Both the position numbers and the translations under genes were made by a program. 64,000 nucleotides of DNA, taken from contig NZ_SCHN01000016.1 in assembly GCF_004120195.1 (NCBI RefSeq), forward strand, positions 1 through 64,000, written 5' to 3'. This stretch comes from Enterovibrio baiacu. GTDB taxonomy: Bacteria; Pseudomonadota; Gammaproteobacteria; Enterobacterales; Vibrionaceae. The stretch's first letter is position 1, and every line of letters starts with the position of its first letter. Positions 19,786 through 61,269 of the stretch are shown piece after piece. The notes under the pieces are model-generated. The model did no database searches. It had not been told where the DNA came from and saw only the letters and a list, made by a program, of their open reading frames with translations.

Positions 19786-20619
19786 TTATGCCGTCACGCG
19801 ATTATAAAACCGAGGCGCATCTTGGCGAGGTAGGTGAATAAGGTTGAGGTTTGTGGCGATCGCTGTGTTCACCGCCAACGAAGTGGGGGTGCCGAGCGTG
19901 ATCAATGAACCCACCCCCGCCATGACGGCTTTTTGCACTAACTCAATGCTGCAACGGCTCGTGACTAACAAGGTGTGTGCTGGCTGCAACACGCGGCCTC
20001 GCATTGCGGCCCCCAGCGTTTTATCAAGTGCGTTGTGCCTGCCAATGTCTTCTCTGCACAGTAAAATCTCCCCCTGATGATCAACCAGCATGGCAGCGTG
20101 GATCGCTCCGCTGATGTGCCCGAGTGATTGCCATTGGCGAAGGGTTTCTCGCAGCGCCAAGATCTTGTCGTCATCGAGCGGCTTTTCGCCGCCCATGGGC
20201 GATAAATCAGGAATGGCTTGGCTTAAGGATTCAGCGCCACAAATTCCGCAACCGGTTCGTCCGGCCAAATGCCGTTTAGCTTGTGTGAGGCGAGCATTGG
20301 CGCGGTTAGCGAGTTGAACATCAGCAAGAATGGCGTCGTTTTCCTGATCGAGGCTGATCTCGTGGATCTCGTTGCAATCATTGATGATGCGCTCGGTCAG
20401 TGAAAAGCCATAAATAAAATCGTCGATGTCTTGCGGGGTTGTCATCATCACTGCATGACTGACGCCATTGAAGCTGATGGCGAGTGGCGTTTCGGTCGGC
20501 AAGGTAGAAAAGCAGGTTGAAGCATCTTGGCTACTGATGTAGTGGTGCAGCGAGTGTGGCGCGAGGGTGGAATCACTCTCAAGTTGCGGGATTTCTCTGA
20601 ACGCTTTTTTTTTCTGCAT
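19786..20619 (-). CDS. fdhD: Formate dehydrogenase accessory sulfurtransferase FdhD
   Basis: 277 residues from ATG 20619 (start MQKKKAFREIPQLE), preferred because AGGAAGAG precedes it; the frame stays open to 20757 but the added residues do not look like FdhD. The RTGCGICGAESL motif holds the two sulfur-relay cysteines, and the C-terminal GRHNALDKTLGAA and VTSRCSIELVQKA segments are family marks. FdhD passes sulfur from IscS to the molybdenum cofactor of formate dehydrogenase. It is divergent from soxB, and formate is a downstream product of methyl-group oxidation, so a shared one-carbon role is plausible. Confidence 0.92.
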   Translation of the reverse strand: MQKKKAFREIPQLESDSTLAPHSLHHYISSQDASTCFSTLPTETPLAISFNGVSHAVMMTTPQDIDDFIYGFSLTERIINDCNEIHEISLDQENDAILADVQLANRANARLTQAKRHLAGRTGCGICGAESLSQAIPDLSPMGGEKPLDDDKILALRETLRQWQSLGHISGAIHAAMLVDHQGEILLCREDIGRHNALDKTLGAAMRGRVLQPAHTLLVTSRCSIELVQKAVMAGVGSLITLGTPTSLAVNTAIATNLNLIHLPRQDAPRFYNRVTA

Positions 20620-20907
20620 ATCGTGATGTTCTCTTCCTGACGAGCCTTTCATACGTTCCCTCACTCCCATCATAGCGTTTGGCCGAATGCCGTGCTTTTT
20701 ATTGGTACTAAAAAGCGAGCTCACGCAGTGTCGCAATAACGTCAAACTCAGGCGCAAAACCGCACTTTACCCCACTGGGGGCGCATTACCATGTTTGAGA
20801 TAAAGTCAGCGTTTTTGCGCGTGAGAGCAATGAAATAGCTACACTTTTTTAAGCAACCCGCATGCATCGGGAACGCGTTTGATTCATCAGTGATTCAGGA
20901 CAACGGA
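20620..20907. promoter_or_regulatory. Divergent fdhD/soxB intergenic region
   Basis: 288 bp between divergent starts. A short palindrome CCCCACTGGGG lies at 20770-20780 and could be an operator. No promoter elements could be fixed with confidence. Confidence 0.4.
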
Positions 20908-22158
20908 ATGACAAATTATTCAGGGTTTGGGTTGTTTAAACATGCGCTCACGTTTCACGAAAACTGGCAGCGTGCATGGCGTAACCCTACGCCAAAACCC
21001 TATTACGACGTGATCATTGTGGGTGGCGGCGGACATGGGCTGGCGACGGCGTATTACCTAGCCAAAGAGTGTGGCGTAAAGAACGTTGCTGTGGTTGAAA
21101 AAGGGTGGCTTGGCGGCGGGAATACGGCGCGAAACACCACGATTGTGCGTTCAAACTACCTGTGGGATGAAGCGGCACAACTCTACGAGCACTCACTCAA
21201 ACTGTGGGAAGGGCTCTCGCAAGAACTCAATTTCAACTTGATGTTTAGTCAACGCGGCGTGCTCAACCTTGGGCACACCTTGCAAGACATGCGCGACATT
21301 GAGCGCCGTGTCAGTGCTAACCGTTTGAATGGCATCGACAGTCAAGTGCTCGACACCGCGGGCGTGCAAGATTTGGTGCCGTTGCTCGATTGCTCTGAAC
21401 GTGCGCGCTACCCCGTGATGGGCGCTAGCTGGCAACCCCGTGGGGGCGTTGCCCGTCATGATGCCGTCGCGTGGGGTTTTGCGCGGGCGGCTGACCAGCT
21501 TGGCGTCGACATGCTTCAGCAAACGGAAGTCACTGGTCTTCGCATCGAAGGCGGCAAAATCAAAGGTGTTGAAACCCCGAATGGGTTTATTGGCGCGGGC
21601 AAAGTCGGCTGTGTTGTTGCGGGTAACTCCGGTGAGCTAGCGCGCATGGCAAACATGACGCTGCCGATTGAATCTCATCCTCTTCAGGCCATGGTGTCTG
21701 AGCCACTTAAACCCTGTATTGATACGGTGATCATGTCGAATCAGGTGCATGGGTATATCAGCCAATCTGACAAAGGCGATCTCGTTATCGGTGCGGGTAT
21801 CGACAGTTATAACGGCTTCGGTCAGCGCGGTTCGTTCCCGATCATCGAACATACAATTTCCGCCATTGTCGAGATGTTCCCCTTCCTCAGTCGCGTGCGC
21901 ATGAACCGCCATTGGGGCGGCATTGTCGATACCACACCAGATGCGTGTCCGATCATCAGTCAAACGGACGTGGAAGGGTTGTACTTCAACTGTGGCTGGG
22001 GCACGGGGGGCTTTAAGGCAACGCCGGGCTCGGGCCATGTGTTTGCCCACACGATCGCGAAAGACAACCCACATCCATTGGCTGCGCCGTTCAAGCTCAA
22101 TCGCTTTATCAGCGGCCATTTGATTGATGAACATGGTGCGGCCGGCGTGGCGCACTGA
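20908..22158 (+). CDS. soxB: Sarcosine oxidase beta subunit
   Basis: 416 residues from ATG 20908 (AGGA 7 nt upstream), the usual length of the heterotetrameric enzyme's beta subunit; GTG 20890 is less likely. The FAD-binding GGGGHG loop is at 39-44, followed by [13 protein letters not shown]. His184 in [11 protein letters not shown] lies where the covalent FMN-linking His of this family is expected. The C-terminal [18 protein letters not shown] is typical. It oxidises the methyl group of sarcosine; the product is taken up by the folate domain of SoxA. First gene of soxB-soxD-soxA. Confidence 0.95.
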
Positions 22159-22262: not shown

Positions 22263-22580
22263 ATGCTAAGGATTTATTGCCCTTACTGTGAAGAACTCAG
22301 GGAAGAACCAGAATTTACGTATAGTGGCGAAGCGCACATCATCAGGCCGTTAGATCCTGATGCCTTGTCAGATGATGAATGGGGTCGCTATCTTTTCCAC
22401 CGCAAGAACATCAAAGGCAGCCATCGTGAAATGTGGCAACACACGGCGGGTTGCCGAAAGTATTTCAATGTTCAGCGCAACACCGTCACCTACGAGATTG
22501 AAGCGGTTTATAAAATCGGTGAAAAGCCACCGAGTGATGACAGCGAAACAAACACACCTAACGGGGAGGCACGCGTATGA
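22263..22580 (+). CDS. soxD: Sarcosine oxidase delta subunit
   Basis: 105 residues. Cys6 and Cys9 (CPYC) with His60 and Cys64 (HTAGC) form the zinc site of the delta subunit, and EWGRYLFHRKNIKG and CRKYFNVQRNT are family marks. GAAAGGAAAAG precedes the start. The stop overlaps the soxA start by four bases (ATGA), which implies translational coupling and stoichiometric expression of the oxidase. Confidence 0.95.
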   Translation: MLRIYCPYCEELREEPEFTYSGEAHIIRPLDPDALSDDEWGRYLFHRKNIKGSHREMWQHTAGCRKYFNVQRNTVTYEIEAVYKIGEKPPSDDSETNTPNGEARV

Positions 22581-25500
22581 GCCAGAAAAATCGCCTCTCT
22601 GAGGGCGGGCGCATTGATCGCAATACCTCGCTGACGTTCACGTTCAACGGCAAAACCTTCCAAGGTCATCAAGGTGACACCTTGGCGTCTGCAATGTTAG
22701 CTAACGGCATCAAAGTGGTGGGGCGCAGTTTTAAATATCACCGACCTCGAGGCATTTTGGGTGCGGGCGCCGAAGAACCCAATGCGATCTTGCAGATTGG
22801 CTCAACGCCAGAATCTGAACTACCGAATCAACGTGCGACCCAAACCGAGCTTTATGACGGGTTAGATGCAAAGGTCGTGAATGCGTGGCCGAGTTTGGAA
22901 AATGATGCCTTGTCTGTCATCGGGAAACTCAGTGGCTCCATGATGCCAGCCGGTTTCTATTACAAAACCTTTATGTACCCAGAATCGCTCTGGCCAACCT
23001 ACGAAAAACACATTCGAAATGCGGCGGGTTTAGGTGAAACCCCACGCGGGAATGATCCGGACAAATACGACAAAATGCAACAACACTGCGAAGTGTTGAT
23101 CATCGGCGCAGGCGCGGCGGGTTTAATGGCTGCACGCAGGCTGGTGGGGCAAGGTTTACGCGTTATCGTGGTGGATGAACAGTCGGAAATGGGCGGCAGT
23201 CTTTTGCATTGCCGCGAGACGATTGACGGCAAGCCTGCCACAGAATGGCTTGATGAAACCCTTGAGATACTCAGGGCCGATCATCACTGCATGCTCCTAT
23301 CAAGGAGTACGGCATTTGGCTATTACGACCATAATTTTGTCGGTGTGCTTGAACGCAAAACCGACCACCTTGGCGAGCAGCAAGGCGGGGTTCGTCAGCG
23401 AATTCATCACATTCGTGCCGAACATGTGTTGTTGGCAACAGGGGCGATAGAACGTCCATTGGTGTTTGGTAACAATGACCTTCCGGGCAGCATGCTGACA
23501 TCTGCGGTGTCGATTTATTTGCGTCGTTACGGCGTGGCACCGGGGGATACTCTGCTGGTGATGACTTCAAACGACGAGGGCTACAACGCGGCATTGGATT
23601 GGCATGAAAGTGGCCGCACCGTTGCGGCGATTGTCGATACCCGTGCGTATGCTGAAGGCGATCGTATCGAACAGGCGAAAGCGCTTGGGATTAGGGTTAT
23701 CTTTGGTCATGGCATCGCGAACCTGCAAGGCAGTGCTGAAATTACCGCGGCGGAAGTGGTGCCTATCGATAAAGAAGGCAAAACGGTGACGGGCGTGATG
23801 GAAGTCATTTCTTGTGACACCGTGGCATCGAGTGGCGGTTGGAGCCCGGCACTGCATTTGAGTTGCCACATTGGCGGTCGCCCCGTTTGGCGGGATGACA
23901 TTGCGGCTTTTGTGCCTTCAGATTACGTCAAAGGGATGGAGTATGCGGGCGCAGTCGATGGCGATGGCACGTTATCTCACGCGATGTTGAGCGGCGCGGG
24001 TGCGGCGATGCGCATTTCGGAAAGCCTCGATGTGCACCTGGAAGATATGCCGTTACCTATGGTGGATGATTGGCTTACGGCGCCTGCCATGGCGATGTAT
24101 TTGGTGCCTCACCGATTGCCAGTGAGCCGCGCACCCAAACAGTTTGTTGATTTCCAAAACGATGTCACCGCCGCAGGCATTGAGCTTGCGGTGCGTGAAG
24201 GCTATGAGTCCATTGAACACATCAAACGTTATACCGCGATGGGTTTTGGTACGGATCAGGGCAAGACCGGCAACATCAATGGCATGGCGATCGCGGCGAA
24301 TGCGATGGGTAAAACCATTGCAGAAACGGGCACGACAATCTTCCGCCCGATGTACACCCCTGTCACGTTTGGCGCGTTGGCAGGGCAAGATGCGGGGCAT
24401 TTGTTTGATCCATGCCGTTATACAGCCATGCATGCTTGGCACGTGGAAAAAGGCGCAAAGTTTGAAGATGTTGGTCAATGGAAACGCCCTTGGTATTTCC
24501 CGAAAGGGAATGAAACCATGGAGCAAACGCTAGCGCGTGAGTGCAAGGCGACCCGCGAAGGCGTCGGCATTCTCGACGCATCCACCTTGGGTAAAATCGA
24601 TATTCAAGGCAAGGATGCGCGTACCTTCCTCAATCGTATCTACACCAATGGCTGGGACAAGCTTGCCCCTGGTCGCTGTCGATATGGCTTTATGTGTCAC
24701 GAAGACGGCATGGTGTTCGACGATGGGGTGACCTCGTGCATCAGCGATGATCACTTCATCATGACCACCACATCTGGTGGGGCGGCAGGCGTGCTGCGTT
24801 GGTTAGAGTTGTGGCATCAAACGGAATGGCCTGAGCTTGAGGTGTTCTTCACGAGTGTGACTGACCATTGGGCGACCATGACCATTTCTGGCCCCCACAG
24901 CCGCAATGTGTTGCAGCAATTGGTTGGCGATGAAGATATTTCGGAAGAAACGATGCCGTTCATGAGTTGGAAGACCATGAAGGTAGCGGGCGTTGATGCG
25001 CGTGTGTTCCGTATCAGTTTTACGGGTGAGTTGTCGTTCGAAATCAACGTGAATGCGAACCACGGTCTGTTCGTGTGGGAACATGTGATGAGCGCGGGCG
25101 AACCGTTTGGGATCACGCCTTATGGCACCGAGACCATGCACATTCTGCGCGCCGAAAAAGGCTTCATCATTGTCGGTCAGGACACGGATGGCTCTGTGAC
25201 GCCGCAAGATCTCAACATGGGTTGGATCACGGGTAAACAGAAAACCTACAGCTTCATTGGCCGTCGCTCATGGGCCCGTGAGGACACAATCCGTACCGAT
25301 CGCAAACAGCTAGTGGGTTTGAAGTGTACCGAACCTTACAAGGTGATCCCTGAGGGTGCGCAAGCGGTGAATGACCCCGATGAACCCATTCCGATGACCA
25401 TGGTAGGCCACGTCAGCTCTTCTTACTTCAGCGCAAACTTGGGGTACTCCATTGCGTTTGGATTAATCAAAGATGGCTTGAACCGCATGGGAGAGCACGT

Positions 25501-26212
25501 CTACTTCCCATTGGCCGATGGCACGGTGCTGAAAGCAGAAATCTGTAGTTCGATTTTCTATGATCCGAAAAACGAAAAGGCCGCTGGCGCAGAACCGGAA
25601 ACGCCTGCATCGACGTTGATGGTGCCAGAAAACGGCGCGCGCTTTGAATCAGCGTTACATCATTTAGGTTCCAACGCGGGTACACATGCACCAGGTGTTC
25701 ATTTGCATGAGCACAAAAACGTTAGCCATGTGATTTTGCGTGGTGAGCCAACGGCTGAATTTGCGTCAGCCGCTGAAGCGGCACTGGGACAAGCACTGCC
25801 TATCTCAGCATCAAGGTCTTCTGAAACCGATGAACGCCAAGTGTGGTGGCTCGCGCCGGACGAGTGGTTGATCTTAAGTGCATCGCAATCAGCGGCAGAA
25901 ACAGAAGCGGCGCTGCGCGATAAGCTGCAAGGCCATTATTCGGTAACGGATGTCACCGGTGGGCAAACGCTGGTCACCTTGACGGGCTCTCACGCGAAAG
26001 ATGTACTGAAAAAATCTGTGCCTTATGACGTGGATGACGGTTACTTCCCCGTAGGGAAATGTGTCGGCACCACGTTTGCCAAAGCGCAGGTGTTTATGAA
26101 GCACAACAGTGAAAACAGCTACGATTTGATTGTACGCCGGAGTTTCGCTGACTACATCGCGCTTTGGATGCAAGCCTCTGCCGAGGAATATGGCATGAAC
26201 TGGGACGGCTAA
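22577..26212 (+). CDS. soxA: Sarcosine oxidase alpha subunit fused to gamma subunit
   Basis: 1211 residues, against about 965-1005 for ordinary SoxA. Residues 1-165 hold the N-terminal ferredoxin-like alpha domain (GDTLASAMLANG, GRSFKYHRPRG); GAGAAG at 177-182 starts the NAD-binding region; about 600-1000 is the GcvT-like folate domain that makes methylene-THF. From about residue 1023 (FESALHHLG) to the end the sequence matches the separate SoxG gamma subunit, including VSHVILRG, VTDVTGGQTLV, PYDVDDGYFPVGKC and VRRSFADYIALWMQ. The open frame is unbroken and no soxG follows, so one polypeptide supplies both subunits. It is followed by a terminator at 26233. Confidence 0.94.
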   Translation: MSQKNRLSEGGRIDRNTSLTFTFNGKTFQGHQGDTLASAMLANGIKVVGRSFKYHRPRGILGAGAEEPNAILQIGSTPESELPNQRATQTELYDGLDAKVVNAWPSLENDALSVIGKLSGSMMPAGFYYKTFMYPESLWPTYEKHIRNAAGLGETPRGNDPDKYDKMQQHCEVLIIGAGAAGLMAARRLVGQGLRVIVVDEQSEMGGSLLHCRETIDGKPATEWLDETLEILRADHHCMLLSRSTAFGYYDHNFVGVLERKTDHLGEQQGGVRQRIHHIRAEHVLLATGAIERPLVFGNNDLPGSMLTSAVSIYLRRYGVAPGDTLLVMTSNDEGYNAALDWHESGRTVAAIVDTRAYAEGDRIEQAKALGIRVIFGHGIANLQGSAEITAAEVVPIDKEGKTVTGVMEVISCDTVASSGGWSPALHLSCHIGGRPVWRDDIAAFVPSDYVKGMEYAGAVDGDGTLSHAMLSGAGAAMRISESLDVHLEDMPLPMVDDWLTAPAMAMYLVPHRLPVSRAPKQFVDFQNDVTAAGIELAVREGYESIEHIKRYTAMGFGTDQGKTGNINGMAIAANAMGKTIAETGTTIFRPMYTPVTFGALAGQDAGHLFDPCRYTAMHAWHVEKGAKFEDVGQWKRPWYFPKGNETMEQTLARECKATREGVGILDASTLGKIDIQGKDARTFLNRIYTNGWDKLAPGRCRYGFMCHEDGMVFDDGVTSCISDDHFIMTTTSGGAAGVLRWLELWHQTEWPELEVFFTSVTDHWATMTISGPHSRNVLQQLVGDEDISEETMPFMSWKTMKVAGVDARVFRISFTGELSFEINVNANHGLFVWEHVMSAGEPFGITPYGTETMHILRAEKGFIIVGQDTDGSVTPQDLNMGWITGKQKTYSFIGRRSWAREDTIRTDRKQLVGLKCTEPYKVIPEGAQAVNDPDEPIPMTMVGHVSSSYFSANLGYSIAFGLIKDGLNRMGEHVYFPLADGTVLKAEICSSIFYDPKNEKAAGAEPETPASTLMVPENGARFESALHHLGSNAGTHAPGVHLHEHKNVSHVILRGEPTAEFASAAEAALGQALPISASRSSETDERQVWWLAPDEWLILSASQSAAETEAALRDKLQGHYSVTDVTGGQTLVTLTGSHAKDVLKKSVPYDVDDGYFPVGKCVGTTFAKAQVFMKHNSENSYDLIVRRSFADYIALWMQASAEEYGMNWDG

Positions 26213-26232: not shown

Positions 26233-26259
26233 AAGACCCGCATATTGCGGGTCTTTTTT
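26233..26259 (+). terminator. Terminator of the sox operon
   Basis: AAGACCCGCA (26233-26242) pairs with TGCGGGTCTT (26246-26255) around a 3-nt loop and is followed by TTTT, 20 bp after the soxA stop. Confidence 0.92.
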
Positions 26260-26342
26260 CGTCATTCTCATGAGCAAGGCGAAGAATGACGTTGTGTTGA
26301 GCGATGATGACATGCTCACGAACTGCTGTTAAGGATGAATGC

Positions 26343-27110
26343 TTGGCGATCATTACCGACCCGATTTTCTATTTTCTGTCTGTTCCCGCGGTGCTGATTT
26401 ACGGTATTGGCAAAGGCGGGTTAGGAGGGGCACTCGGCATTATCGCTGTTCCCTTAATGGCGTTTGCAGTATCGCCATTGCAGGCCGCAGCGATCTTGTT
26501 GCCCATTCTGTGTGTGATGGATGTGTTTGCGGTGCGCTATCACTACAAGAATGCGGATTACTCGGTAATAAAGAAGATGCTGCCAGGCGCGCTGGTGGGG
26601 GTGATCATTGCAGGTGTTTATATCAATGTGGTGCCGCAAGCAGGTTTGAAACTGACGATTGGTGTGCTGTCCCTGTGGTTCTGTGCTCAGTATGTCTGGT
26701 CAATGTTCGCGAATAGCGCACAGGCAGTGAAAACTAATAGCACTATTGGCGCAACCGTGTGGGGGACGGTGAGTGGATTTTCGAGCACGACCATTCATGC
26801 AGGTGGTGGACCTGCCAGTATCTATTTGTTGCCGCTAAAACTGGAAAAGGTCACCTTAATCGCCACCATGGCGGTATTTTTCGCGCTGCTGAATGTGGCA
26901 AAGCTTGTGCCTTATGCATTAAGCGGCGAGTTTGACGCCACCAATGTGCTGACAGCACTGGTGCTAATGCCTTTTGCGCCTCTCGGCGTGTCAATGGGGG
27001 TTTGGTTGCTACACCGAGTCAGTCAAACGCGCATCTACCAGCTTTGCTATTTGTTCTTGTTCCTGTCCGGCGCAAAGCTCTCGTACGATGGTTTACTGGC
27101 GTTGATTTAA
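26343..27110 (+). CDS. TauE/SafE family membrane permease
   Basis: 255 residues if it starts at TTG 26343, which has AAGGA at 7-nt spacing; ATG 26304 in the same frame adds 13 residues without an SD. About eight hydrophobic segments are visible, with the family marks IYGIGKGGLGG (first half) and STTIHAGGGPASIYLLP (second half). The family (formerly DUF81) moves sulfite, sulfonates or other small anions. After the sox operon, but separated by a terminator, an organic-anion export role is conceivable; the substrate is not shown. Convergent, overlapping the regulator gene by a few bases. Confidence 0.85.
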   Translation: MAIITDPIFYFLSVPAVLIYGIGKGGLGGALGIIAVPLMAFAVSPLQAAAILLPILCVMDVFAVRYHYKNADYSVIKKMLPGALVGVIIAGVYINVVPQAGLKLTIGVLSLWFCAQYVWSMFANSAQAVKTNSTIGATVWGTVSGFSSTTIHAGGGPASIYLLPLKLEKVTLIATMAVFFALLNVAKLVPYALSGEFDATNVLTALVLMPFAPLGVSMGVWLLHRVSQTRIYQLCYLFLFLSGAKLSYDGLLALI

Positions 27111-27940
27111 CCTGTTTGGCTCAAGCGAAACGCCAGTGAAACAGCGAGTGTTTGTGCCAAACACATACTCGCGGCTTGAGAACGAAAAGATTCCACTTCC
27201 GCTTCTTTCACCACAAAACACACATCACTGTTCGCCGCCAGAGGGCTGACTTGGCTATCGGTGAACACAATCTGCTTGGCATTTGATGCCGCAGCGCGTT
27301 CGCATAGTGATACCGTTTCCTCTGAATACGCAGGGAAACTCGCTGAAACCACCACATCGCGTTCAGACACCAATGCCATTTGCTCATTCGCCATGCCACC
27401 AAATCCATCCACCAGCACGACTCGGCGTTCGAGATGACGAAGGGCATAGGCGAAGTAGGCGGCGATACTGAACGAGCGACGCATTCCGACCACATAGATA
27501 GTCTCGGCGTTTTCTAGCAAGGTGACGGCATTGTCGAGCAACTCTGACGGAATCGTTGAAGGCATCTCTTGCAACGCAACGGCATTGGCTTGGCTGAACT
27601 GCATGAGCACATCTGCTGGGGTGTCGAGCGATTGATGCTCGCCCTCGCGCGCCTGAAGTAACTTCGCGCGTTCTGTGTAACTGCTGGTTTCTTCAACGAG
27701 GTTCTTACGAAAAAGCTGCTTCATTTCATTGAAGCCGCTGAACTCAAAGGCATTCGCAAAACGAATCAGTGTCGAAGGGGGAACGCTTGCATGTATGGCG
27801 ATAACGGCGACGGTATCGAAGGCAATGCTATTGGGGTTGTCCAAGACATAATACGCCACCTGTTGGAGGCGTTTGCTTAGGTCATGGTAGCGGTGACGTA
27901 TTTGTTGTTGCAATTCAGCGAGGTGAGTAGCCGTTGCCAT
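27107..27940 (-). CDS. MurR/RpiR family transcriptional regulator
   Basis: 277 residues. The N-terminal helix-turn-helix (about 1-80) contains RLQQVAYYVLDNP and VPPSTLIRFANAFEFSGFNE, as in RpiR regulators. A SIS domain (about 125-260, with YVVGMRRS and VVSASFPAYSEE) should bind a phosphosugar or other small ligand. Its position beside the permease and sox genes makes them candidate targets, but no matching operator was identified. Confidence 0.9.
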   Translation of the reverse strand: MATATHLAELQQQIRHRYHDLSKRLQQVAYYVLDNPNSIAFDTVAVIAIHASVPPSTLIRFANAFEFSGFNEMKQLFRKNLVEETSSYTERAKLLQAREGEHQSLDTPADVLMQFSQANAVALQEMPSTIPSELLDNAVTLLENAETIYVVGMRRSFSIAAYFAYALRHLERRVVLVDGFGGMANEQMALVSERDVVVSASFPAYSEETVSLCERAAASNAKQIVFTDSQVSPLAANSDVCFVVKEAEVESFRSQAASMCLAQTLAVSLAFRLSQTG

Positions 27941-29248: not shown

Positions 29249-30571
29249 TTATTCGTAGTTTTTGTAATATAAGTGGCCAACCTCTTCACTAATCAGCTCG
29301 AGAATGTTGTCGTAAATTTCTTGATAAGAGTTGGCAGATTGAACATTTTCAGCACCTGCACATGTCTGTAAGCCCGGGTTTTCAGCAATGTTGTAGTCAA
29401 ATCCAATGACTGCAATTTTTGCCTCAACGGAACGGCCATCAACTTCTAAGGCTTCGAGATCATTAAGGATATTGCTACATAATCCGCCATTATAGAGTCG
29501 CGATGCGGCGTAGCCTGGGTACCTGTCATCATCGGAGTTGTTTTGATTTACCGAATCTTCGCCATCTGACAAAACAATGATGAGTTTCCGAACATTCTCT
29601 CCTTGTTCCAACAATTTTGCGGCAGCGATTATCCCTTCATAAGAAGCAGTACCGTGATTGGGGCTGAATTGATTAATTGTCGAACGGAAGTTTGGGAAGT
29701 CGTCGGTTAAGTCCACTGTTCGAAAATATGAGGAATCATCACCTGAAACTCGACCATTAATGCGTTTAGAACCAGTGTTTAAAGGGTTTGCAATGGTACT
29801 GGCAAAGGCAATGCGAGGCGTGTTAGTCCACCATTCTCTAGACAGGCTTGCGTTGCTTGTGTACGAAACATTACTAAAATATGAGGTCCCATTACTTGTA
29901 TACAGGTTATAGCCAATAAATGCGGCTCGGTTTAGCAGACGTTTTCCGTCTAGCTCTTGCTCAGTAGATTCATTGAATGATTCAAGCTTCTCTGTAATAT
30001 CTTCAATAACGTTGATAACGCCGCGATATTTCGTTTGGCCATTCCATGGGTCTTTCATTGAGCCAGAAAAGTCAGCGACAAAAGCGACATCAATGGTGAA
30101 ACCTTGATACTTTCGAGAGACTGCGTTCGTTCCCATCGTGACAGTCTCGTCAAATCCATGGGCAAAATCATCTTCAGGATACCAAGAAGTAAAGTCAGAC
30201 TTCACAACAACGTTATATTGCGTAAAAACAAGCCCTTCTTCGTCATAGACGTTTGGTTTTCCGCATTGCTCTCCGTATATCTCATCACAACTTTTTTTGA
30301 TAATGCGTATTTTGGACAGATCAATGCTGCCATCGGGCACATATGCTTGAGCATATTCTTTGGCGAGTTTTTTGTTTTCTGAATCTAATGTCGAGGCGTT
30401 TGCAGCAACGGCTAATGACGCCATCTCGACGGCATCACCAAATCGTGCATGTGTTTGTAGATATCTTGTTGCCTCCACACCCAGCACGAAAAGAGCGAAA
30501 AAGGTGGGAAAAATAACCACAAACATGATGGCCGCTACGCCTCTCTGTTTCTTTTGTTGTTGTAGTTTCAT
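29249..30571 (-). CDS. tadG: TadG-like pilus protein with von Willebrand A domain
   Basis: 440 residues. An N-terminal pseudopilin-like part (QRGVAAIMFVVIFPTFFALFVLGVEATRYL, split here by its cleavage-like G|VA start) forms one membrane segment. From about 158 a vWA domain follows, with MIDAS residues DFSGS (D..S.S), a Thr in HGTASYEG and LSDGED. TadG proteins are needed for assembly of Flp pili, and the metal site suggests adhesion or protein contact at the surface or in the periplasm. Sits 6 bp after tadF. Confidence 0.9.
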   Translation of the reverse strand: MKLQQQKKQRGVAAIMFVVIFPTFFALFVLGVEATRYLQTHARFGDAVEMASLAVAANASTLDSENKKLAKEYAQAYVPDGSIDLSKIRIIKKSCDEIYGEQCGKPNVYDEEGLVFTQYNVVVKSDFTSWYPEDDFAHGFDETVTMGTNAVSRKYQGFTIDVAFVADFSGSMKDPWNGQTKYRGVINVIEDITEKLESFNESTEQELDGKRLLNRAAFIGYNLYTSNGTSYFSNVSYTSNASLSREWWTNTPRIAFASTIANPLNTGSKRINGRVSGDDSSYFRTVDLTDDFPNFRSTINQFSPNHGTASYEGIIAAAKLLEQGENVRKLIIVLSDGEDSVNQNNSDDDRYPGYAASRLYNGGLCSNILNDLEALEVDGRSVEAKIAVIGFDYNIAENPGLQTCAGAENVQSANSYQEIYDNILELISEEVGHLYYKNYE

Positions 30572-30577
30572 CGTTTC

Positions 30578-31162: not shown

Positions 31163-31177
31163 ACTTTTTAGGGAGAA

Positions 31178-37542: not shown

Positions 37543-37555
37543 GTCTCTTCTCTCG

Positions 37556-39444: not shown

Positions 39445-39455
39445 ATTCTTGTTCT

Positions 39456-49823: not shown

Positions 49824-50322
49824 GGTTTTCTTTCTCCTTATTCAACCAGGATGAGAGTGTAACCCTAAGAAAGCGAGAGGTGGTATTCGAACATCCACTA
49901 TTGGGTATGGTTTTCAGTGAGCTTTTGACGCGTTTACTCTCCGAGGTGTCGCGGCTGGAATACTGCATATTGAGAATTACACCCATCTTAGAAGCAGGAA
50001 AATGAAAGTGTAAACTGACAGAAAGGCTGTTGATAATACGTACAAAATAACGCACACGCCGTCAATTAAAGACAAATCGGTGGCGAAAAAAACGTGCGTT
50101 AGCCTCGGGCATTGACCAACATCAACCTATTGTACTTGCCGTTCTTGTCTACTTACGCCGCGATGCTTTATGTCACCGTGTTTATTGGTCATCGATCGTT
50201 TAGATGCCAAGAAAAGTACTTTCTAAAGAGCATGGTGAGATGCAATCACTCACGCGCCACCATTCCGACGCACTGGCAGGCTGGTGAATAATAAACATAA
50301 CGCAGTACTGGTAGAGACCACT
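49824..50322. other. Gene-free region upstream of fhs
   Basis: About 500 bp between divergent genes. No gene, repeat or riboswitch fold recognised; I looked for glycine and tetrahydrofolate riboswitch motifs by eye and saw none. Promoters for both flanking genes should be here. Confidence 0.4.
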
Positions 50323-52011
50323 ATGACAATGTTACCCCCTCCCGGCTCGCCGGATATTGATATTGCACGTGCAGTAAAACCGTGGCCTATCTTCGAAGTG
50401 GCGCAACGTAAACTCGGCATTGCGCAGCATGCGTTGATCCCTTACGGACACTACAAAGCCAAACTCGATTTGGCGCAGATTGATACCGATACCACGTTGG
50501 GTAAATTGGTGTTGGTGACGGCTATCACACCAACACCGGCGGGTGAAGGGAAAACCACCACGAGTATCGGCTTGACTGACGCATTAAATGCCATTGGCAT
50601 AAACGCGAGCGTTTGCCTCCGAGAGCCATCTTTAGGCCCATGCTTTGGTGTAAAAGGCGGTGCCGCGGGCGGTGGTCGTGCTCAAGCCATTCCAATGGAA
50701 GATTTAAACCTGCATTTTAATGGCGATTTTCATGCCATTACCTCCGCGCATAACTTGCTCGCCGCATTGATTGATAACCACATTCATTGGGGAAATGAGC
50801 TGAATCTCGACCCTCGCCGCATCACCTGGCGACGCGTGATGGACATGAATGATCGCGCGCTTCGTAACACGCTGGTGGGGCTTGGTGGCCCCGCTCATGG
50901 TCAGCCAAGAGAGTCAGGGTTCGACATCACTGTCGCATCAGAAATCATGGCGATCTTGTGTCTAGCCGAAGACCGAAAAGATCTTCAAAAGCGCCTCGGC
51001 AATATCATCATTGGGCGTAACCGCGATAACCAACCTGTTACTGCGCGAGAACTGGGCGCTGAAGGCGCTATGACCGTATTGCTGAAAGAAGCGATTCAAC
51101 CCAATTTAATTCAGACCCTCGAGCACAACCCTGCGCTGATACACGGCGGTCCTTTCGCCAATATCGCTCATGGTTGTAACTCCGTGATGGCAACCCGAAC
51201 TGCGATGGCATTGAGTGACGTGGTTGTTACCGAAGCGGGATTTGGTGCCGATCTCGGCGCGGAAAAATTCATCGACATTAAATGCCGCATGTCAGGTTTA
51301 ATGCCCGATGCCGTCGTACTGGTGTGTACGGTGCGCGCGCTGAAAATGCAAGGCGGCGTGCCTAAGTCGGACTTGGATGCACCCAATGTGGATGCCGTGA
51401 TTGAAGGAGCTTCAAACCTCTCTCGCCATATCATAAACATGCAGCAATTTGGCTTGACGCCTTTGGTGGCGATCAACCGCTTCCCGACCGATGATGATCA
51501 GGAATTGGCGGCAATCAAAGACGTCTGTTTGTCATTAGGTGCGCCGGTTGAAGAAGCCCAACACTGGGCGGAAGGTGGCCTTGGTGCTAAAGCCGTCGCA
51601 GAAGGGGTAAAAGCCCTGTTGGATGGCGAAAAGCCAGACGTAAAGTTCCTTTATGATAAAGCATTACCGATTGACGAAAAAATTCGCACTGTCGCGACGA
51701 AACTGTACGGCGCTTCGGATGTGCAATTTAATATCGCCGCACAAAAGCAGTTGGACGAAATCCACGCGCTAGGTTTTGGCGACTTACCCATTTGTATTGC
51801 CAAAACGCCTTATAGCTTCTCTGCTGACCCACACATGTTGGGTGCACCAACTGACCATATTCTGCCCGTGCGTGAGCTTCGCTTAATGGCAGGCGCAGGC
51901 TTTGTGGTCGCCATCTGTGGCGACGTCATGACCATGCCAGGCCTGCCGAGAAAACCCGCAGCGTTGAGTATATCGTTGGATGACAACGGCGAAATTGTCG
52001 GGTTGTTCTAA
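50323..52011 (+). CDS. fhs: Formate-tetrahydrofolate ligase
   Basis: 562 residues from ATG 50323 (GGTAGAG upstream); GTG 50284 in frame would add 13 residues. The ATP loop [13 protein letters not shown] is near residue 68-80 and [20 protein letters not shown] follows, both diagnostic of Fhs. It makes 10-formyl-THF from formate, ATP and THF, or runs in reverse. With dimethylglycine and sarcosine demethylation nearby it probably balances one-carbon units. Normal length. Followed by its own terminator. Confidence 0.95.
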
Positions 52012-55261: not shown

Positions 55262-57322
55262 ATGTCTCAGTTTGATGCCATTTTTCAACCGCTTGCGATC
55301 AACAAGCTGATGATCAGAAATCGCGTGATCAGTACCGCCCACGCCGAGGTGTATTCGACGGAAAATGGCATGCCGACTGAGCGCTATATCCAGTATTACG
55401 AAGAGAAAGCCAAAGGCGGTATTGGGCTGTGTGTCTGTGGCGGGTCAAGTCCTGTGTCGATTGATAGCCCCCAAGGTTGGTGGAAATCCGTCAACATGGC
55501 GTCTGACGACGTGGTCCCTCACCTGCAAAACCTTGCTGATGCCATGCACAAGCATGGCGCGGCAATCATGATCCAAATTACGCATATGGGGCGTCGCTCA
55601 CGTTGGGATGGTGGCGAATGGCCATCATTGATGAGCCCGAGTGGTATCCGTGAACCGGTGCACCGTGCGACCTGTAAAACCATTGAGCCGGAAGAAATCT
55701 GGCGTGTTATCGGCGACTTCGCAAAAGCCACCAAGCGTGCAAAAGATGGCGGTTTAGACGGTGTAGAGCTCTCTTTCGCGCACCAGCATCTCGTCGATCA
55801 GTTTTGGAGCCCTCGCGTTAACAAACGCACCGATGAATGGGGCGGCAGTTTCGAAAACCGCATGCGCTTTGGGGTTGAAGTGCTAAAAGCTGTGCGTGAA
55901 GAAGTGGGGCCTGATTTCGCGGTCGGTATTCGCATGACGGGGGATGAGTTTCACCCTGATGGCCTAAACCAAGACGACATGAAAGAGATCGCCGCTTACT
56001 ACGACAGCCTTGGCATGATTGATTTCTTCAGCATCGTGGGTTCAGGCTGTGATACTCACAATACGCTCGCGAACGTGATCCCGAACATGACCTATCCGCC
56101 TGAGCCATTTATTCATTTAGCAGCAGGCATTCGCAGTGTGGTCAATGTGCCTGTCATGCATGCACAAAACATCAAAGATCCGGTGCAAGCCGCACGAGCA
56201 CTGGAAAGTGGCTTGATCGATTTTGTGGGCATGACTCGCGCGCACCTTGCAGACCCGCACCTCATCACCAAAGTCAAACTGGGACAGACAGATCAAATTC
56301 GCCAATGTGTTGGCGCGAACTACTGCATTGACCGCCAGTACCAAGGCATAGATGTACTCTGCATTCAAAATGCCGCGACCTCTCGTGAGCAAACCATGCC
56401 GCACATCATCCAAAAAACAGACGGACCCATTCGTAAAGTGGTGATTGTCGGTGGTGGTCCTGCGGGCATGGAAGCGGCACGCGTTTGTGCGGAGCGCGGG
56501 CACCAAGTGACGCTGTTTGAGAAAAACAGCGAGCTAGGTGGGCAGATCACCATTGCAGCGCAAGCGCCACAGCGCGAACAAATTGCGGGTATCACGCGTT
56601 GGTTCGATCTAGAGCTTCGTCGTCTAGGTGTGAACTTAGTGTTTGATGTAACCGCAGATGAAGCCATGATCAAGGCAGAAAATCCTGATGTGGTGTTACT
56701 TGCGGTGGGCGGTAAGCCGTTCGTGAATCAGATGCCTGAATGGGGCGCAGACGATGGCTTGGTCGTGAGCAGCTGGGATGTACTCAGTGGCGCGGTTGAA
56801 CCGGGTAAAAACGTCGTCGTGTATGACACGATTTGTGAGTTTAGCGGTATGTCCGTTGCTGATTTTCTCGCCGCTAAGGGGGCGCAAGTTGAGCTGGTCA
56901 CGGATGACATTAAACCCGGTGTCGCTGTCGGCGGGACAAGTTTTCCTACGTACTACCGAAGCCTGTACACCCGAGATGTGGTGATGACATCCGATTTGAT
57001 GCTAGAGAAGGTCTACAAAGAAGGGGATGCGTTAATTGCACACTTTGAAAATGAATACACGGGCGTGAAAGAAGAACGTGTGGTTGATCAAGTGGTGATT
57101 GAGAACGGCGTCAGACCGGATGAAGCGCTCTACTACGCGTTCAAAGACGGCTCGCGCAATAAGGGGCAAATCGACATTGAAGCGCTGTTCGCCGCGCAGC
57201 CTCAGCCTATTTTCTCCGAACAGGGGGAGGGGTATTTGCTGTATCGCCTAGGCGATTGCAATGCGCCGCGTAATATTCATGCTGCGATTTACGACGCCTT
57301 GCGCCTCTGTAAAGACCTGTAG
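55262..57322 (+). CDS. dgcA: Dimethylglycine demethylase subunit DgcA
   Basis: 686 residues; AAGGAAG before the ATG. N-terminal FMN-binding barrel of the old-yellow-enzyme/trimethylamine dehydrogenase type, 4Fe-4S cluster cysteines in CVGANYCID and CIQNA near residues 345-370, then a dinucleotide-binding domain with VVIVGGGPAGMEAARV (about 397). Fits DgcA, which oxidises dimethylglycine to sarcosine with DgcB and an electron-transfer flavoprotein. No methyltransferase or folate domain is present. Directly upstream of dgcB with an 11-20 bp gap. Confidence 0.92.
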   Translation: MSQFDAIFQPLAINKLMIRNRVISTAHAEVYSTENGMPTERYIQYYEEKAKGGIGLCVCGGSSPVSIDSPQGWWKSVNMASDDVVPHLQNLADAMHKHGAAIMIQITHMGRRSRWDGGEWPSLMSPSGIREPVHRATCKTIEPEEIWRVIGDFAKATKRAKDGGLDGVELSFAHQHLVDQFWSPRVNKRTDEWGGSFENRMRFGVEVLKAVREEVGPDFAVGIRMTGDEFHPDGLNQDDMKEIAAYYDSLGMIDFFSIVGSGCDTHNTLANVIPNMTYPPEPFIHLAAGIRSVVNVPVMHAQNIKDPVQAARALESGLIDFVGMTRAHLADPHLITKVKLGQTDQIRQCVGANYCIDRQYQGIDVLCIQNAATSREQTMPHIIQKTDGPIRKVVIVGGGPAGMEAARVCAERGHQVTLFEKNSELGGQITIAAQAPQREQIAGITRWFDLELRRLGVNLVFDVTADEAMIKAENPDVVLLAVGGKPFVNQMPEWGADDGLVVSSWDVLSGAVEPGKNVVVYDTICEFSGMSVADFLAAKGAQVELVTDDIKPGVAVGGTSFPTYYRSLYTRDVVMTSDLMLEKVYKEGDALIAHFENEYTGVKEERVVDQVVIENGVRPDEALYYAFKDGSRNKGQIDIEALFAAQPQPIFSEQGEGYLLYRLGDCNAPRNIHAAIYDALRLCKDL

Positions 57323-57342
57323 CATCTGGCGAGGTGAGCGAT

Positions 57343-59238
57343 ATGTCCACAACGCTAATTGGTCCTCTTCTTCTCCTTGTGATCGTGCTTGCCGCGGTAG
57401 GAGCAGGGAGAAGAGTCAAGATGTGGCGTCAGGGGAAACCTGACCACGTTCCATTTTTCAACGCCATCACCGCCATTCTTCCTCGCTACCTTCATGATTT
57501 GCATGACGTGGTGGCTCGCGATAAAAAGTTTGCGAACACGCACGTCGCAACAGCAGGGGGATTCGTTGCCTCTATGCTGGTTATGTTGGTGGTATATTTG
57601 TTCGGCGGTGACGCGCCGATAACGTATGGCTTATTGGCCGTCACGTTCTCCGTGATGAGTCTTGGTGCCTATCAGGTGAAAAGGCGCCGCGATAATCCGC
57701 CCGCGAATTTATCGAAAGGCCCTTGGCAGCGCCTACCCTATAGCCTGCTGGTGTTTTCGATCTCAGGCCTTTGTATTTCCCTCATTCAGCTTCTTGGCAT
57801 CGTCAATATTTCTATCGTCGTTACCTTCTTTTTAATCGGCGGGGTGTTGCTTGGGTTAACCGAACTGATCGTGGGCATGGGATGGGGTGGCCCAATGAAG
57901 CATGCCTTCGCAGGTGCATTGCACCTTGGTTTTCATCGCCGACAAGATCGTTTTTCAGGTGGACGCTCTACGGGGCTGAAACCCATCGATTTGAATGAAA
58001 GCAAACTCGGTGTCGAAATGGCGACGGATTTTCACTGGAATCAGTTGCTCGGGTTTGATGCTTGTGTCCAATGTGGGCGCTGTGAAAAAGTCTGCCCTGC
58101 GTTTGCAGCAGGTCAGCCGCTTAATCCGAAAAAGCTGATCCAAGATCTCGTGGTGGGCATGGCGGGTGGCGATACTTCTCACTATGCCGGTAGCCCTTAT
58201 CCAGGAAAGGAGGCGAGCAAAGAAAGCGCGAAATGTGGCGCACCGGATACGCCGTTGTTTGAAAGCTTGTTGGACACAGACACCGTGTGGTCTTGCACCA
58301 CATGTCGCGCCTGCGTAGAAGAGTGCCCAATGATGATTGAGCATGTGGATGCCATCGTGGACATGCGCCGTCATTTGACGTTGGCGAAAGGTGAAACCGC
58401 AGGGAAAGGGTCGGACTCGCTTGATAACTTGATCGCGACGGACAACCCCAATGGTTTTTCTCCTGCGAATCGCGCTAACTGGTCGATTGATTTGAAACTC
58501 GATGCAATGTCGGATGTTGGTCGCGCTGATGTGCTTCTGTGGGCGGGTGACGGCGCGTTTGATTTGGCTTATCAACGCACACTTCGCGCCGTGGTGGCAC
58601 TGCTTCGCCAAGCCAAAGTGAACTTTGCCATTTTAGGCAATGAAGAACTCGACAGCGGCGATCTTGCGCGTCGATTAGGTGACGAAGCAACGTTCCAACG
58701 TCTCGCCAGTGCCAATGTGAAAACCCTCAACAAATACAACTTCGATACCATAGTGACGCCTGACCCTCATGCCTTTCATGTGCTGAAAAATGAATATGGC
58801 GACTTCGGCGGTGACTATCAGGTGATGCACCACACGGAGTTCCTTGCTGAGTTGGTAAAAACCAACAAACTCACCGTATCCGAAACCAAAACACAAGACG
58901 TGACCTATCACGACCCGTGTTATCTCGGGCGGTACAACGGCGGCTATGATGCACCGAGATATTTGCTGCAAGCCATGGGCTTTACGCTCAATGAAATGGA
59001 ACGTTCAGGCTTTCGTTCGCGCTGTTGTGGCGGCGGTGGCGGCGCGCCCATCACGGATATTCCCGGTGAGCACCGCATTGCCGACATGCGTATGGATGAT
59101 GCGCGAGAAACGGGCGCGGATTTGGTAGCGGTCGCGTGTCCGCAGTGTGCGGTGATGTTGGAAGGTGTGGTGATGCCGCGCCCAGATGTCAAAGATGTGG
59201 CCGTGATGCTGTTAGATCGCATTGAGAAAGCGGGGTAG
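57343..59238 (+). CDS. dgcB: Dimethylglycine demethylase electron-transfer subunit DgcB
   Basis: 631 residues from ATG 57343 (GAGGTGA 6 nt upstream); GTG 57334 is in frame but lies in the SD. N-terminal membrane part (about 1-170, with four or more hydrophobic segments), two 4Fe-4S motifs (CVQCGRCEKVCP near 240, CTTCRACVEECP near 317) and a CCGGGGG cluster-type motif near 560 of the CCG/heterodisulfide-reductase kind. It passes electrons from DgcA and ETF to the quinone pool at the inner membrane. Stop is 5 bp before etfA. Confidence 0.92.
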   Translation: MSTTLIGPLLLLVIVLAAVGAGRRVKMWRQGKPDHVPFFNAITAILPRYLHDLHDVVARDKKFANTHVATAGGFVASMLVMLVVYLFGGDAPITYGLLAVTFSVMSLGAYQVKRRRDNPPANLSKGPWQRLPYSLLVFSISGLCISLIQLLGIVNISIVVTFFLIGGVLLGLTELIVGMGWGGPMKHAFAGALHLGFHRRQDRFSGGRSTGLKPIDLNESKLGVEMATDFHWNQLLGFDACVQCGRCEKVCPAFAAGQPLNPKKLIQDLVVGMAGGDTSHYAGSPYPGKEASKESAKCGAPDTPLFESLLDTDTVWSCTTCRACVEECPMMIEHVDAIVDMRRHLTLAKGETAGKGSDSLDNLIATDNPNGFSPANRANWSIDLKLDAMSDVGRADVLLWAGDGAFDLAYQRTLRAVVALLRQAKVNFAILGNEELDSGDLARRLGDEATFQRLASANVKTLNKYNFDTIVTPDPHAFHVLKNEYGDFGGDYQVMHHTEFLAELVKTNKLTVSETKTQDVTYHDPCYLGRYNGGYDAPRYLLQAMGFTLNEMERSGFRSRCCGGGGGAPITDIPGEHRIADMRMDDARETGADLVAVACPQCAVMLEGVVMPRPDVKDVAVMLLDRIEKAG

Positions 59239-59243
59239 CTGTG

Positions 59244-60506
59244 ATGAGCGATGATACCAAACAAAGCGTACCGCTGAGGCGGAATCGACGGCTCGAATAC
59301 ATAGCGCGTAATCGCCTGCACCCTGAACACGCGGCGTTAGTGGCATCTCAAAACATCATGCTGGGCGGTACAAACCGAAAAGACCCTCACCGTGTTGGTT
59401 TCTTCACTCCCGATGGCATTAAGCGGGTCGATCGATCCGGAGAAACCTCTGCGGCAGCAGGGATCGCGGCAAAAGCCGTTGAACAAAGCTTGCCAAGAAA
59501 ACACATCGCATCGCCATCGGATTATGTGGTGGTAGTCTCGGATGGCGACAGCGAAAAACTATCAACGCTCGATAAAGACATGCTTGGCTTGGCACAGCAA
59601 TTGTCTGCGAGAGCGGGTGAAAGCACCGCCGTGCTTTTGGTCACTGTGTTCACGCGCCAAGATGATTTTGCGGCAGCAGGCGCTGATCGTGTGCTGGCGC
59701 TCAATGCGTCAATGTCTTATGCCCCTGAGCAATGGCTCTCTGCATTACTTTCACTTGAATCATCCCTTTCGCCCGTTCATTGGGTGTTCCCCGATTCGGG
59801 CTTGGTGGGCGGTGATTTGGCACGCAAACTCAGTGTGGAACTCAATGAGAGACCCGCAACGCGAGTAAGAGGCGTGATCGATGCACCAGCAGAAGATGTG
59901 CGGATCGAATGCGCGAGCGGTGATGCGGGGAAAACCGTGACGCGGCAACTCGCGCGCGTTTTGCTGGTGGAAGAACAAGTGGCAGACCCGATTTCGGGCT
60001 ATCTCACTGACGCGTCGCCTTTGGAAGAATCACCCCTTGATGTTACCCACGCTTTCAGCGACGTGTGTGCCATTCAAGATGCTGGCAGCGTGGCAGTTGA
60101 CCCGAAAAACATCCCATTGCCGGAAACGGGCTTTATTTTGTCTGGCGGAAACGGCGTGCGAAATTGGGCGTTGTTCCATCAATGTGCAGACGCATTGGGC
60201 GCGACAGAAGGGGCAAGCCGTGTGGCGGTGGATAATGGGCACATGCCCAGAACGACACAAGTGGGAGCATCAGGCACTTATGTTAACGCCAAAGTGTATA
60301 TCGCCGTGGGGATTTCAGGGGCGATCCAGCATCTGCAAGGAATGACGCACTGTGACACAGTGATCGCGATAAACGCAGACCCTGCTTGCGACATGGTGAA
60401 ACGTGCTGACCTCAGCATCATCGCCGACAGTTCAGAAGTGATGCAAGCCCTCGTGGATGCAGCACAGGGTGCGACAACCAACAAGGAGATCAGTGATGCA
60501 AGTTAA
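59244..60506 (+). CDS. etfA: Electron-transfer flavoprotein alpha subunit (dimethylglycine cluster)
   Basis: 420 residues, longer than ordinary EtfA, as is usual for the methylamine-linked ETFs. The N-terminus carries a charged extension (RRNRRLEYIARNRLHPEH). The C-terminal FAD domain has ILSGGNGV, GASRVAVDNG, QVGASGTYVNAKVYIAVGISGAIQHLQGM, the ETF alpha signature. ATG 59244 or the overlapping GTG 59241 may start. Overlaps etfB by 11 bp. Confidence 0.92.
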   Translation: MSDDTKQSVPLRRNRRLEYIARNRLHPEHAALVASQNIMLGGTNRKDPHRVGFFTPDGIKRVDRSGETSAAAGIAAKAVEQSLPRKHIASPSDYVVVVSDGDSEKLSTLDKDMLGLAQQLSARAGESTAVLLVTVFTRQDDFAAAGADRVLALNASMSYAPEQWLSALLSLESSLSPVHWVFPDSGLVGGDLARKLSVELNERPATRVRGVIDAPAEDVRIECASGDAGKTVTRQLARVLLVEEQVADPISGYLTDASPLEESPLDVTHAFSDVCAIQDAGSVAVDPKNIPLPETGFILSGGNGVRNWALFHQCADALGATEGASRVAVDNGHMPRTTQVGASGTYVNAKVYIAVGISGAIQHLQGMTHCDTVIAINADPACDMVKRADLSIIADSSEVMQALVDAAQGATTNKEISDAS

Positions 60507-61269
60507 TGACGACATCATGGTGCTGGCCTCTTGCGGGCATCATCCACTTTCAGGCCGAGAGCGTCGCGCTGATCGTGATGCGCAAGCACTCGAAATTGCG
60601 CTGCAACATACGGCTTCGCCCCACGTGGTGTTTGCCGGTGATCCTGAATGCTCGGCATTGCGTGAATATTTGGGAATGGGCGTGCCTGAAGTCAACGTAC
60701 TCATCCAAACCGCCGAATCCGATGTCAGCGCGGCGCTTGCCAGTTACGCCCATCAAAAATCGCCCCGTGTCGTCTTGTGCGGCCACCGCGCAGAACAAGG
60801 CGAATCGTCAGGCATGGTGCCGTATTTGGTGGGAAAACGCTTGAACGCGGCTGTGGTGCCAGACGTGGTGGATATTCTTGCGCAAGATGCAGAGTCCGTT
60901 GAAGTGCTTCAAGCGCTCGCGGGCGGGCAACGTCGTCGGTTACACGTTCGACTTCCCGCAGTGTTAATCGCCAGCGCATCTGCCCCTGTTGCTCGGCAAA
61001 GTGCCTTTACCAAAGCGAGAGACGGAGTGATTCATTCACTGAGCGTGGCAGACGTTGAAGATACCGAGTTGATCACATGGCACTGGCAGGCAGCGAAAAA
61101 GCGCGCGAAACGCGTTAAAACCGTCGCAGCATCGTCCTCAAGCCGAGATCGTTTCCGTGCGGCAACCGCAGCGTCCGCCTCAACAGGGGGTAAAGTTCTA
61201 CAAAATCCCAGCCCTGAAGAGGCGGCTGACGCTATTATGCAGTTGCTCAAAGAGAAGGGCGTCTATTAA
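60496..61269 (+). CDS. etfB: Electron-transfer flavoprotein beta subunit (dimethylglycine cluster)
   Basis: 257 residues from ATG 60496, chosen for AAGGAG at 7-nt spacing; an earlier ATG 60457 lies inside etfA. The N-terminal DRDAQALEIAL and VVLCGHRAEQGESSGMVPYLVGKRL segments match the beta subunit. The C-terminal part is divergent from housekeeping EtfB and carries an Arg/Lys- and Ser-rich stretch (KKRAKRVKTVAASSSSRD). It completes the dgcAB-etfAB set. Confidence 0.9.
   Translation: MQVNDDIMVLASCGHHPLSGRERRADRDAQALEIALQHTASPHVVFAGDPECSALREYLGMGVPEVNVLIQTAESDVSAALASYAHQKSPRVVLCGHRAEQGESSGMVPYLVGKRLNAAVVPDVVDILAQDAESVEVLQALAGGQRRRLHVRLPAVLIASASAPVARQSAFTKARDGVIHSLSVADVEDTELITWHWQAAKKRAKRVKTVAASSSSRDRFRAATAASASTGGKVLQNPSPEEAADAIMQLLKEKGVY

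Follow-up and report, generated by a model that had tools for sequence, protein, structure and literature searches.

A sarcosine oxidase operon with soxA and soxG in one reading frame in Enterovibrio baiacu and related Vibrionaceae

The heterotetrameric sarcosine oxidase of Corynebacterium sp. U-96 (Protein Data Bank (PDB) entries 1vrq and 3ad7-3ada) and its relative 2gag/2gah have their alpha and gamma subunits as separate chains. We analysed a 64,000-nucleotide stretch of the Enterovibrio baiacu genome (contig NZ_SCHN01000016.1, positions 1 to 64,000; hereafter the window) that carries a sox operon in which all four parts of this enzyme are recognisable, whereas alpha and gamma are encoded as one chain by a single gene, which we call soxAG. 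The order soxB-D-A-G is kept in this operon, as in the soxBDAG operons of Pseudomonas, Vibrio natriegens and others described in the part of the article consulted (PMC12093977). At gene level, the four separate gene products expected of a heterotetrameric sarcosine oxidase are not found, SoxA and SoxG sharing one frame. Taking the evidence as a whole, we consider it very probable that the locus encodes a tetrahydrofolate-linked sarcosine oxidase of the heterotetrameric type with soxA and soxG as one gene, a three-chain enzyme of one Vibrionaceae origin.

SoxA and SoxG in a single frame

The soxAG frame runs through 1211 codons without an internal stop, the two other reading frames are closed across the soxA/soxG junction, and the protein carries VTDVTGGQTLV and PYDVDDGYFPVGKC. 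Its residues 2-1002 match the SoxA model TIGR01372 with 1424.3 bits (cut-off 1164) and hold the full set of SoxA domains (Fer2_4, FAD/NAD-binding, SO_alpha_A3, GCV_T and GCV_T_C), and residues 1061-1202 match the SoxG family PF04268 with 122.4 bits (cut-off 21). Among PDB sequences, the gamma chain 2gag_C aligns to residues 1033-1205 (E 2.2e-14; 5e-28 in a profile search), and the alpha chains 1vrq_A and 2gag_A are also matched. The matches to TIGR01372, PF04268 and 2gag_C bear out an earlier note, made from the letters of the window, which had claimed a complete SoxA and a complete SoxG in one 1211-residue frame. The alignment with Corynebacterium SoxA that it had proposed agrees, in that residues 8-101 and 150-1001 match residues 11-106 and 107-961 of 1vrq_A; SoxG matches chain C, and the SoxB and SoxD of the window match chains B and D.

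We modelled residues 12-1211 with AlphaFold (mean predicted local distance difference test score (pLDDT) 73; predicted template modelling score (pTM) 0.46). The pLDDT falls below 50 at residues 999-1023, in the linker, and is about 90 over most of SoxG from about residue 1041. Foldseek matched the model to 1vrq_A and 2gag_A, to 2gag_C with a template modelling score of 0.84 by target length, and to 1vrq_C with 0.77. Matches to both alpha and gamma chains, together with a low-pLDDT linker, indicate that the protein contains the two folds joined by a flexible segment.

Distribution and origin of the fusion

To follow the fusion across genomes, we searched with PF04268 and noted how long an open frame surrounded every match. 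Eighteen genomes of the window's own genus were searched (its own and 17 others), with members including Enterovibrio norvegicus FF-33, E. calviensis, Enterovibrio sp. ZSDZ35, ZSDZ42 and JCM 19048, Grimontia marina, G. indica and G. celer. SoxG was found in 12 of the 18 and is fused in 11 of these 12 (ten complete, one truncated at a contig end): ten frames span 1208-1226 residues, and G001 has an 821-residue frame, cut by the contig start, with both domains present. The wider family yielded SoxG in 41 of 329 genomes. Photobacterium (g7) contributes six copies in five genomes, four of them fused (1246, 1235 and 1235 residues, plus 956 at a contig end) and two separate, whereas the SoxG frames of g12 (23 genomes, including Vibrio pelagius and V. 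penaeicida) and g13 (one genome) are 189-269 residues long. The earlier note had also suggested searching related genomes for the same fusion; with 11 own-genus and 4 Photobacterium genomes carrying it, the fusion is old enough to be common to a genus and part of another. Photobacterium proteolyticum, whose fused copy and separate copy lie on two contigs, offers a natural experiment on how a tethered gamma affects assembly and activity.

Beyond the family, frames above 1000 residues are rare. The class and phylum draws are samples that missed the Photobacterium fusions: SoxG matched in 31 of 369 genomes of the class sample and in 90 of 398 of the phylum sample, with a frame of more than 1000 residues only in the window's own genome in each. 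The class of G465 (inferred Alphaproteobacteria) gave matches in 123 of 337 genomes and, among the matches listed, no frame above 372 residues except one of 823 with a weak match (E 2.8e-8). Frames of about 700-880 residues carry weak matches (E 2.8e-8 or weaker; one of 667 residues, E 1.2e-9) and are taken as other GcvT-type proteins. The named loci are the best 80 of at least 569 confirmed matches, and 11 of them are fused: seven from Enterovibrio/Grimontia, three from Photobacterium and one from a Rhodocyclaceae metagenome-assembled genome (MAG; PRO19, L190, 1231 residues); the window's own genome and the fused relatives G001, G009, G016 and G832 lie outside these 80. Relatives of the Rhodocyclaceae MAG gave a SoxG match in 10 of 150 genomes including itself, and the MAG alone exceeds 1000 residues.

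Single-piece tblastn matches on plasmids (Methylobacterium, Mesorhizobium, Rhodobacteraceae) were annotated as separate neighbouring genes; 871 records matched, of which seven were inspected, one of them, from Halomonas, being without annotation there. A description of the alpha-gamma fusion was not found in the open-access literature searched, subscription papers being outside its scope, and so may already have been published.

The unfused relatives point to how the genes could have joined. Among the 69 unfused loci, 62 show an 8-base overlap between the soxA stop and the soxG ATG, reading ATGTCTGA or a near variant of it, and soxG is then read one frame over. Of the remainder, L139 overlaps by 11 bases, L150 and L159 carry the same motif (the script took a nearer ATG), L177 and L186 have a later start, and L137 and L203 have broken frames. 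Because of this overlap, a small indel would fuse the genes: loss of the soxA stop with a shift of soxG by one base (or a gain of two) would join them. We propose that in Vibrionaceae such an indel in the 8-base overlap, occurring once, would have removed the soxA stop and brought soxG into frame.

Two trees bear on the number of origins. Projection took in 68 of the 80 named loci; the other 12 were dropped by eye (L147, L164, L165, L170, L175, L176, L180, L201, L203, L205, L206 and L207), many of them short, near-duplicate or from MAGs, and L203 for its broken frames. With the window and ten further loci these made 79 rows, from which 53 were chosen by hand for a SoxA+SoxG tree and 51 for a SoxB tree (LG+G4). 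In the former, the 15 Vibrionaceae fusions form one clade (support 95/89), L190 is placed with Thauera, away from them, and the fused state needs two changes. The SoxB tree, built on a protein free of any trace of the fusion, likewise unites its 13 Vibrionaceae fused rows (99/99). The unfused V. penaeicida, itself on a long branch, adjoins the fused clade weakly in the SoxA+SoxG tree (92/73), a placement that the SoxB tree does not repeat. In a DgcA tree from the literature, in the part of the article consulted, Grimontia, Enterovibrio, Photobacterium and V. penaeicida share a divergent branch (PMC12093977). Given their linker differences, the Vibrionaceae fusions might conceivably have two nearby origins; both trees favour one. 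The Rhodocyclaceae MAG, whose junction lacks a soxA stop, is probably an independent case, and is counted as no more than probable because a single high-G+C MAG could hide an indel. A further proposal, which we rate as less likely than not, is that the three-chain enzyme is natural and that the alpha-gamma fusion arose at least twice, in Vibrionaceae and in the Rhodocyclaceae lineage, from the same 8-base overlap; the overlap would then be a mutational hotspot, and assembly of the fused enzymes would follow another path, in which gamma could no longer dissociate.

Between the window and its nearest relative, G009 (L077), synonymous divergence is 0.85 in SoxA and 0.11 in SoxG, a contrast that suggests that recent recombination replaced the 3' end of soxAG. 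Beside the Photobacterium fused gene lies a 446-residue GcvT-type protein (L111:7533-8870; same place in L113, L114 and L116); the L111 copy, the one scanned, has dimethylsulfoniopropionate demethylase as its best match (260.7 of a 410-bit cut-off).

Alternatives to a three-chain enzyme

Several observations weigh against a three-chain enzyme of single origin. The dedicated model TIGR01375 scores residues 1054-1204 at 132.2 bits, slightly below its cut-off of 143.95, and the packing of SoxG on SoxA is not predicted, because the pTM is too low. Fused clades sit on long branches in the SoxA+SoxG tree (L148, L139 and L190 were flagged as long there), and the linkers of the Enterovibrio/Grimontia and Photobacterium fusions differ strongly. 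Enterovibrio sp. JCM 19048 (G005) has no intact frame, with breaks in fdhD, soxB and soxA-G. The divergent SoxG-like protein of a second operon, described below, could in principle serve in place of the fused domain. Finally, among the 16 fused genes compared (the window, ten own-genus relatives, four Photobacterium and L190), 13 carry, within the linker or at its edges, one or more in-frame GTG or TTG codons that have a 4-5-base Shine-Dalgarno match, including a GTG near the old soxG start in three of the four Photobacterium genes (L111, L114 and L116).

In both drafts of JCM strains, Enterovibrio sp. JCM 19048 (L203) and Photobacterium sp. JCM 19050 (L137), the operon frames are broken; these are probably low-quality assemblies.

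The start sites bear on the alternative that survives best, namely that the fused gene continues to yield free SoxG, whether through internal initiation or through cleavage of the disordered linker, so that a four-chain complex remains. All 62 unfused loci with the 8-base overlap have a Shine-Dalgarno match of at least 4 bases before the soxG ATG, whereas none of the 16 fused genes has an in-frame ATG between the domains with such a match; the ATG-plus-Shine-Dalgarno signal of soxG has been lost in the fused genes. In-frame ATGs do occur, at residue 1015 of the window protein and near the old soxG start in L076 (G. celer), L078 (G. indica) and L082, where they are kept without a Shine-Dalgarno signal, and the linker is predicted to be disordered, as cleavage would have it. 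The GTG and TTG sites speak for internal initiation as well, but they are common to close relatives only and absent from L081, L113 and L190, and four-base Shine-Dalgarno matches are frequent by chance. On balance, we regard continued production of free SoxG as unlikely.

Far less credible is that the fusion is a relic, with SoxG decaying without a role inside a longer SoxA tail. SoxG does show lower identity than SoxA (59-67% as opposed to 78-82% when the window is compared with fused-frame genus members, the near-identical G009 excluded), but the free SoxG of unfused relatives is likewise less conserved than SoxA. The SoxG frame is open in 15 Vibrionaceae fusions, and the sole broken one, G005, has a broken soxB and fdhD too. 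Across eight chosen pairs, the ratio of nonsynonymous to synonymous divergence (dN/dS) is 0.003-0.155 in SoxA and SoxG wherever dS is defined, except in the Photobacterium SoxG pair L111/L116, whose 0.398 fits decay; SoxG dS is saturated in three of the eight pairs, the other four with defined SoxG dS give 0.04-0.16, and the linker is looser (0.05-0.91). Moreover, 31 alignment columns are invariant across 15 fused and unfused SoxG sequences. A separate comparison had 54 rows, 12 of them fused (the window and 11 loci); the other 42 were SoxA or SoxG sequences taken from 21 unfused loci.

A sequencing or assembly error that makes two overlapping genes, soxA and soxG, look like one has a negligible chance. 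A one-base slip would nearly suffice, because the 8-base overlap of the unfused genes is read in two frames, and G005 has broken frames. But the junction is open in 11 genomes of the genus and four of Photobacterium, and their linkers have diverged and contain neither the stop nor the start signal of soxG; this conservation excludes for Vibrionaceae the missed or added base near 25630-25660 that the earlier note had raised. For the single Rhodocyclaceae MAG an error is conceivable.

The three-chain enzyme is a reasonable inference, SoxB, SoxD and SoxA-G being intact and a free SoxG lacking any conserved ATG from which to start. Its SoxG domain presumably occupies the place of the free gamma subunit. 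The linker that would tether it flexibly to the C-terminal end of alpha measures about 25-40 residues, or as many as about 50 in Photobacterium. The enzyme would be assembled from three chains, alpha-gamma, beta and delta, with alpha and gamma forced to 1:1, and its role would be unchanged: within the dimethylglycine/glycine betaine pathway, it would oxidise sarcosine to glycine and pass the methyl carbon to tetrahydrofolate. Evolution is known to fuse genes whose products belong to one complex, as the part of PMC4009401 consulted describes, so the surprise is moderate; the fused enzyme is a genuine, though modest, variation on a familiar one in some marine Vibrionaceae (Enterovibrio, Grimontia and a few Photobacterium). 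There may be an annotation risk, the SoxG part falling below the NCBIfam soxG cut-off and SoxA well above its own; the fused protein is likely to be annotated as SoxA alone, with soxG reported missing in these species.

Genomic context and related enzymes

The features of the window are collected in Table 1. SoxB His190 aligns with His173 of 2gag_B, which we take to be the covalent flavin mononucleotide site, and SoxD Cys6, Cys9, His60 and Cys64 align with Cys/His residues of 1vrq_D that are presumably zinc ligands. The names dgcA and dgcB in the window are provisional and take the layout in the part of PMC12093977 consulted as a guide, rather than a dedicated model. Between the sox operon and the dgcAB-like genes, genes resembling a Tad-type pilus cluster (TadE-like, ATPase and secretin-like; named by eye) occupy 29249-40229 on the minus strand.

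Table 1. Coordinates of the sox operon and of surrounding features in the window
Feature	Coordinates	Strand	Remarks
fdhD, formate dehydrogenase accessory protein	19786..20757	-	divergent from soxB
soxB, beta subunit	20890..22158	+	TIGR01373, 698.4 bits, over cut-off
soxD, delta subunit	22263..22580	+	TIGR01374, over cut-off; 4-base overlap with soxAG
soxAG, SoxA (alpha) and SoxG (gamma) of sarcosine oxidase	22577..26212	+	single 1211-residue frame, ATG start
SoxA part of soxAG	22580..25582	+	TIGR01372, 1417.9 bits in genome search
Linker between SoxA and SoxG	25583..25696	+	about residues 1003-1040; length and sequence variable
SoxG core	25757..26182	+	PF04268
Terminator-like inverted repeat and T run	26233..26259	+	directly after soxAG; read by eye
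TauE/SafE family permease	26304..27110	+	downstream
RpiR-type regulator (HTH_6 and SIS)	27107..27940	-
Formate--tetrahydrofolate ligase	50284..52011	+	context: one-carbon units from sarcosine
Four dgcA-dgcB-etfA-etfB-like genes	55262..61269	+	dimethylglycine to sarcosine; both etf matches below NCBIfam cut-offs

The same genome carries a second, paralogous and unfused operon, purU-folD-soxB2-soxD2-soxA2 with a divergent SoxG-like open reading frame (G000:C5:214150-221167; L225, L226), set among ectoine-degradation genes (doeA, doeB). SoxA2 scores 870 bits, below the SoxA cut-off, and its substrate may therefore differ. The SoxG-like frame matches GCV_T of Pfam below the cut-off (E 9.7e-5) and a SoxG profile with E 2.2e-5 and a probability of 76. 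Across the genome, TIGR01372 recovers these two SoxA proteins, a shorter match of GcvT type and ten weak matches. The earlier statement that there is no separate soxG thus holds for the fused operon and for PF04268, which has a single SoxG match genome-wide, but not for the genome in the strict sense, given the divergent SoxG-like frame after the second operon on contig G000:C5.

Elsewhere, soxBDAG operons have a separate soxG, and in several of them purU or glyA is adjacent (PMC3691474 among the sources); neither lies beside the fused operon of the window, and two purU over the cut-off stand elsewhere in the genome. The dgcAB-etfAB-like genes lie about 29 kb downstream of the sox operon, a layout shared with V. 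natriegens, whose two glycine betaine clusters are about 28 kb apart and for which growth on dimethylglycine and sarcosine has been shown (PMC12093977, part consulted). The window protein also has sequence and structure matches to dimethylglycine oxidase/dehydrogenase (1pj5, 4p9s), members of the same superfamily. We take these enzymes to carry an oxidase module and a folate module on a single chain, a precedent within the superfamily. They join a beta-like to a GcvT-like module, whereas the protein of the window joins alpha to gamma.

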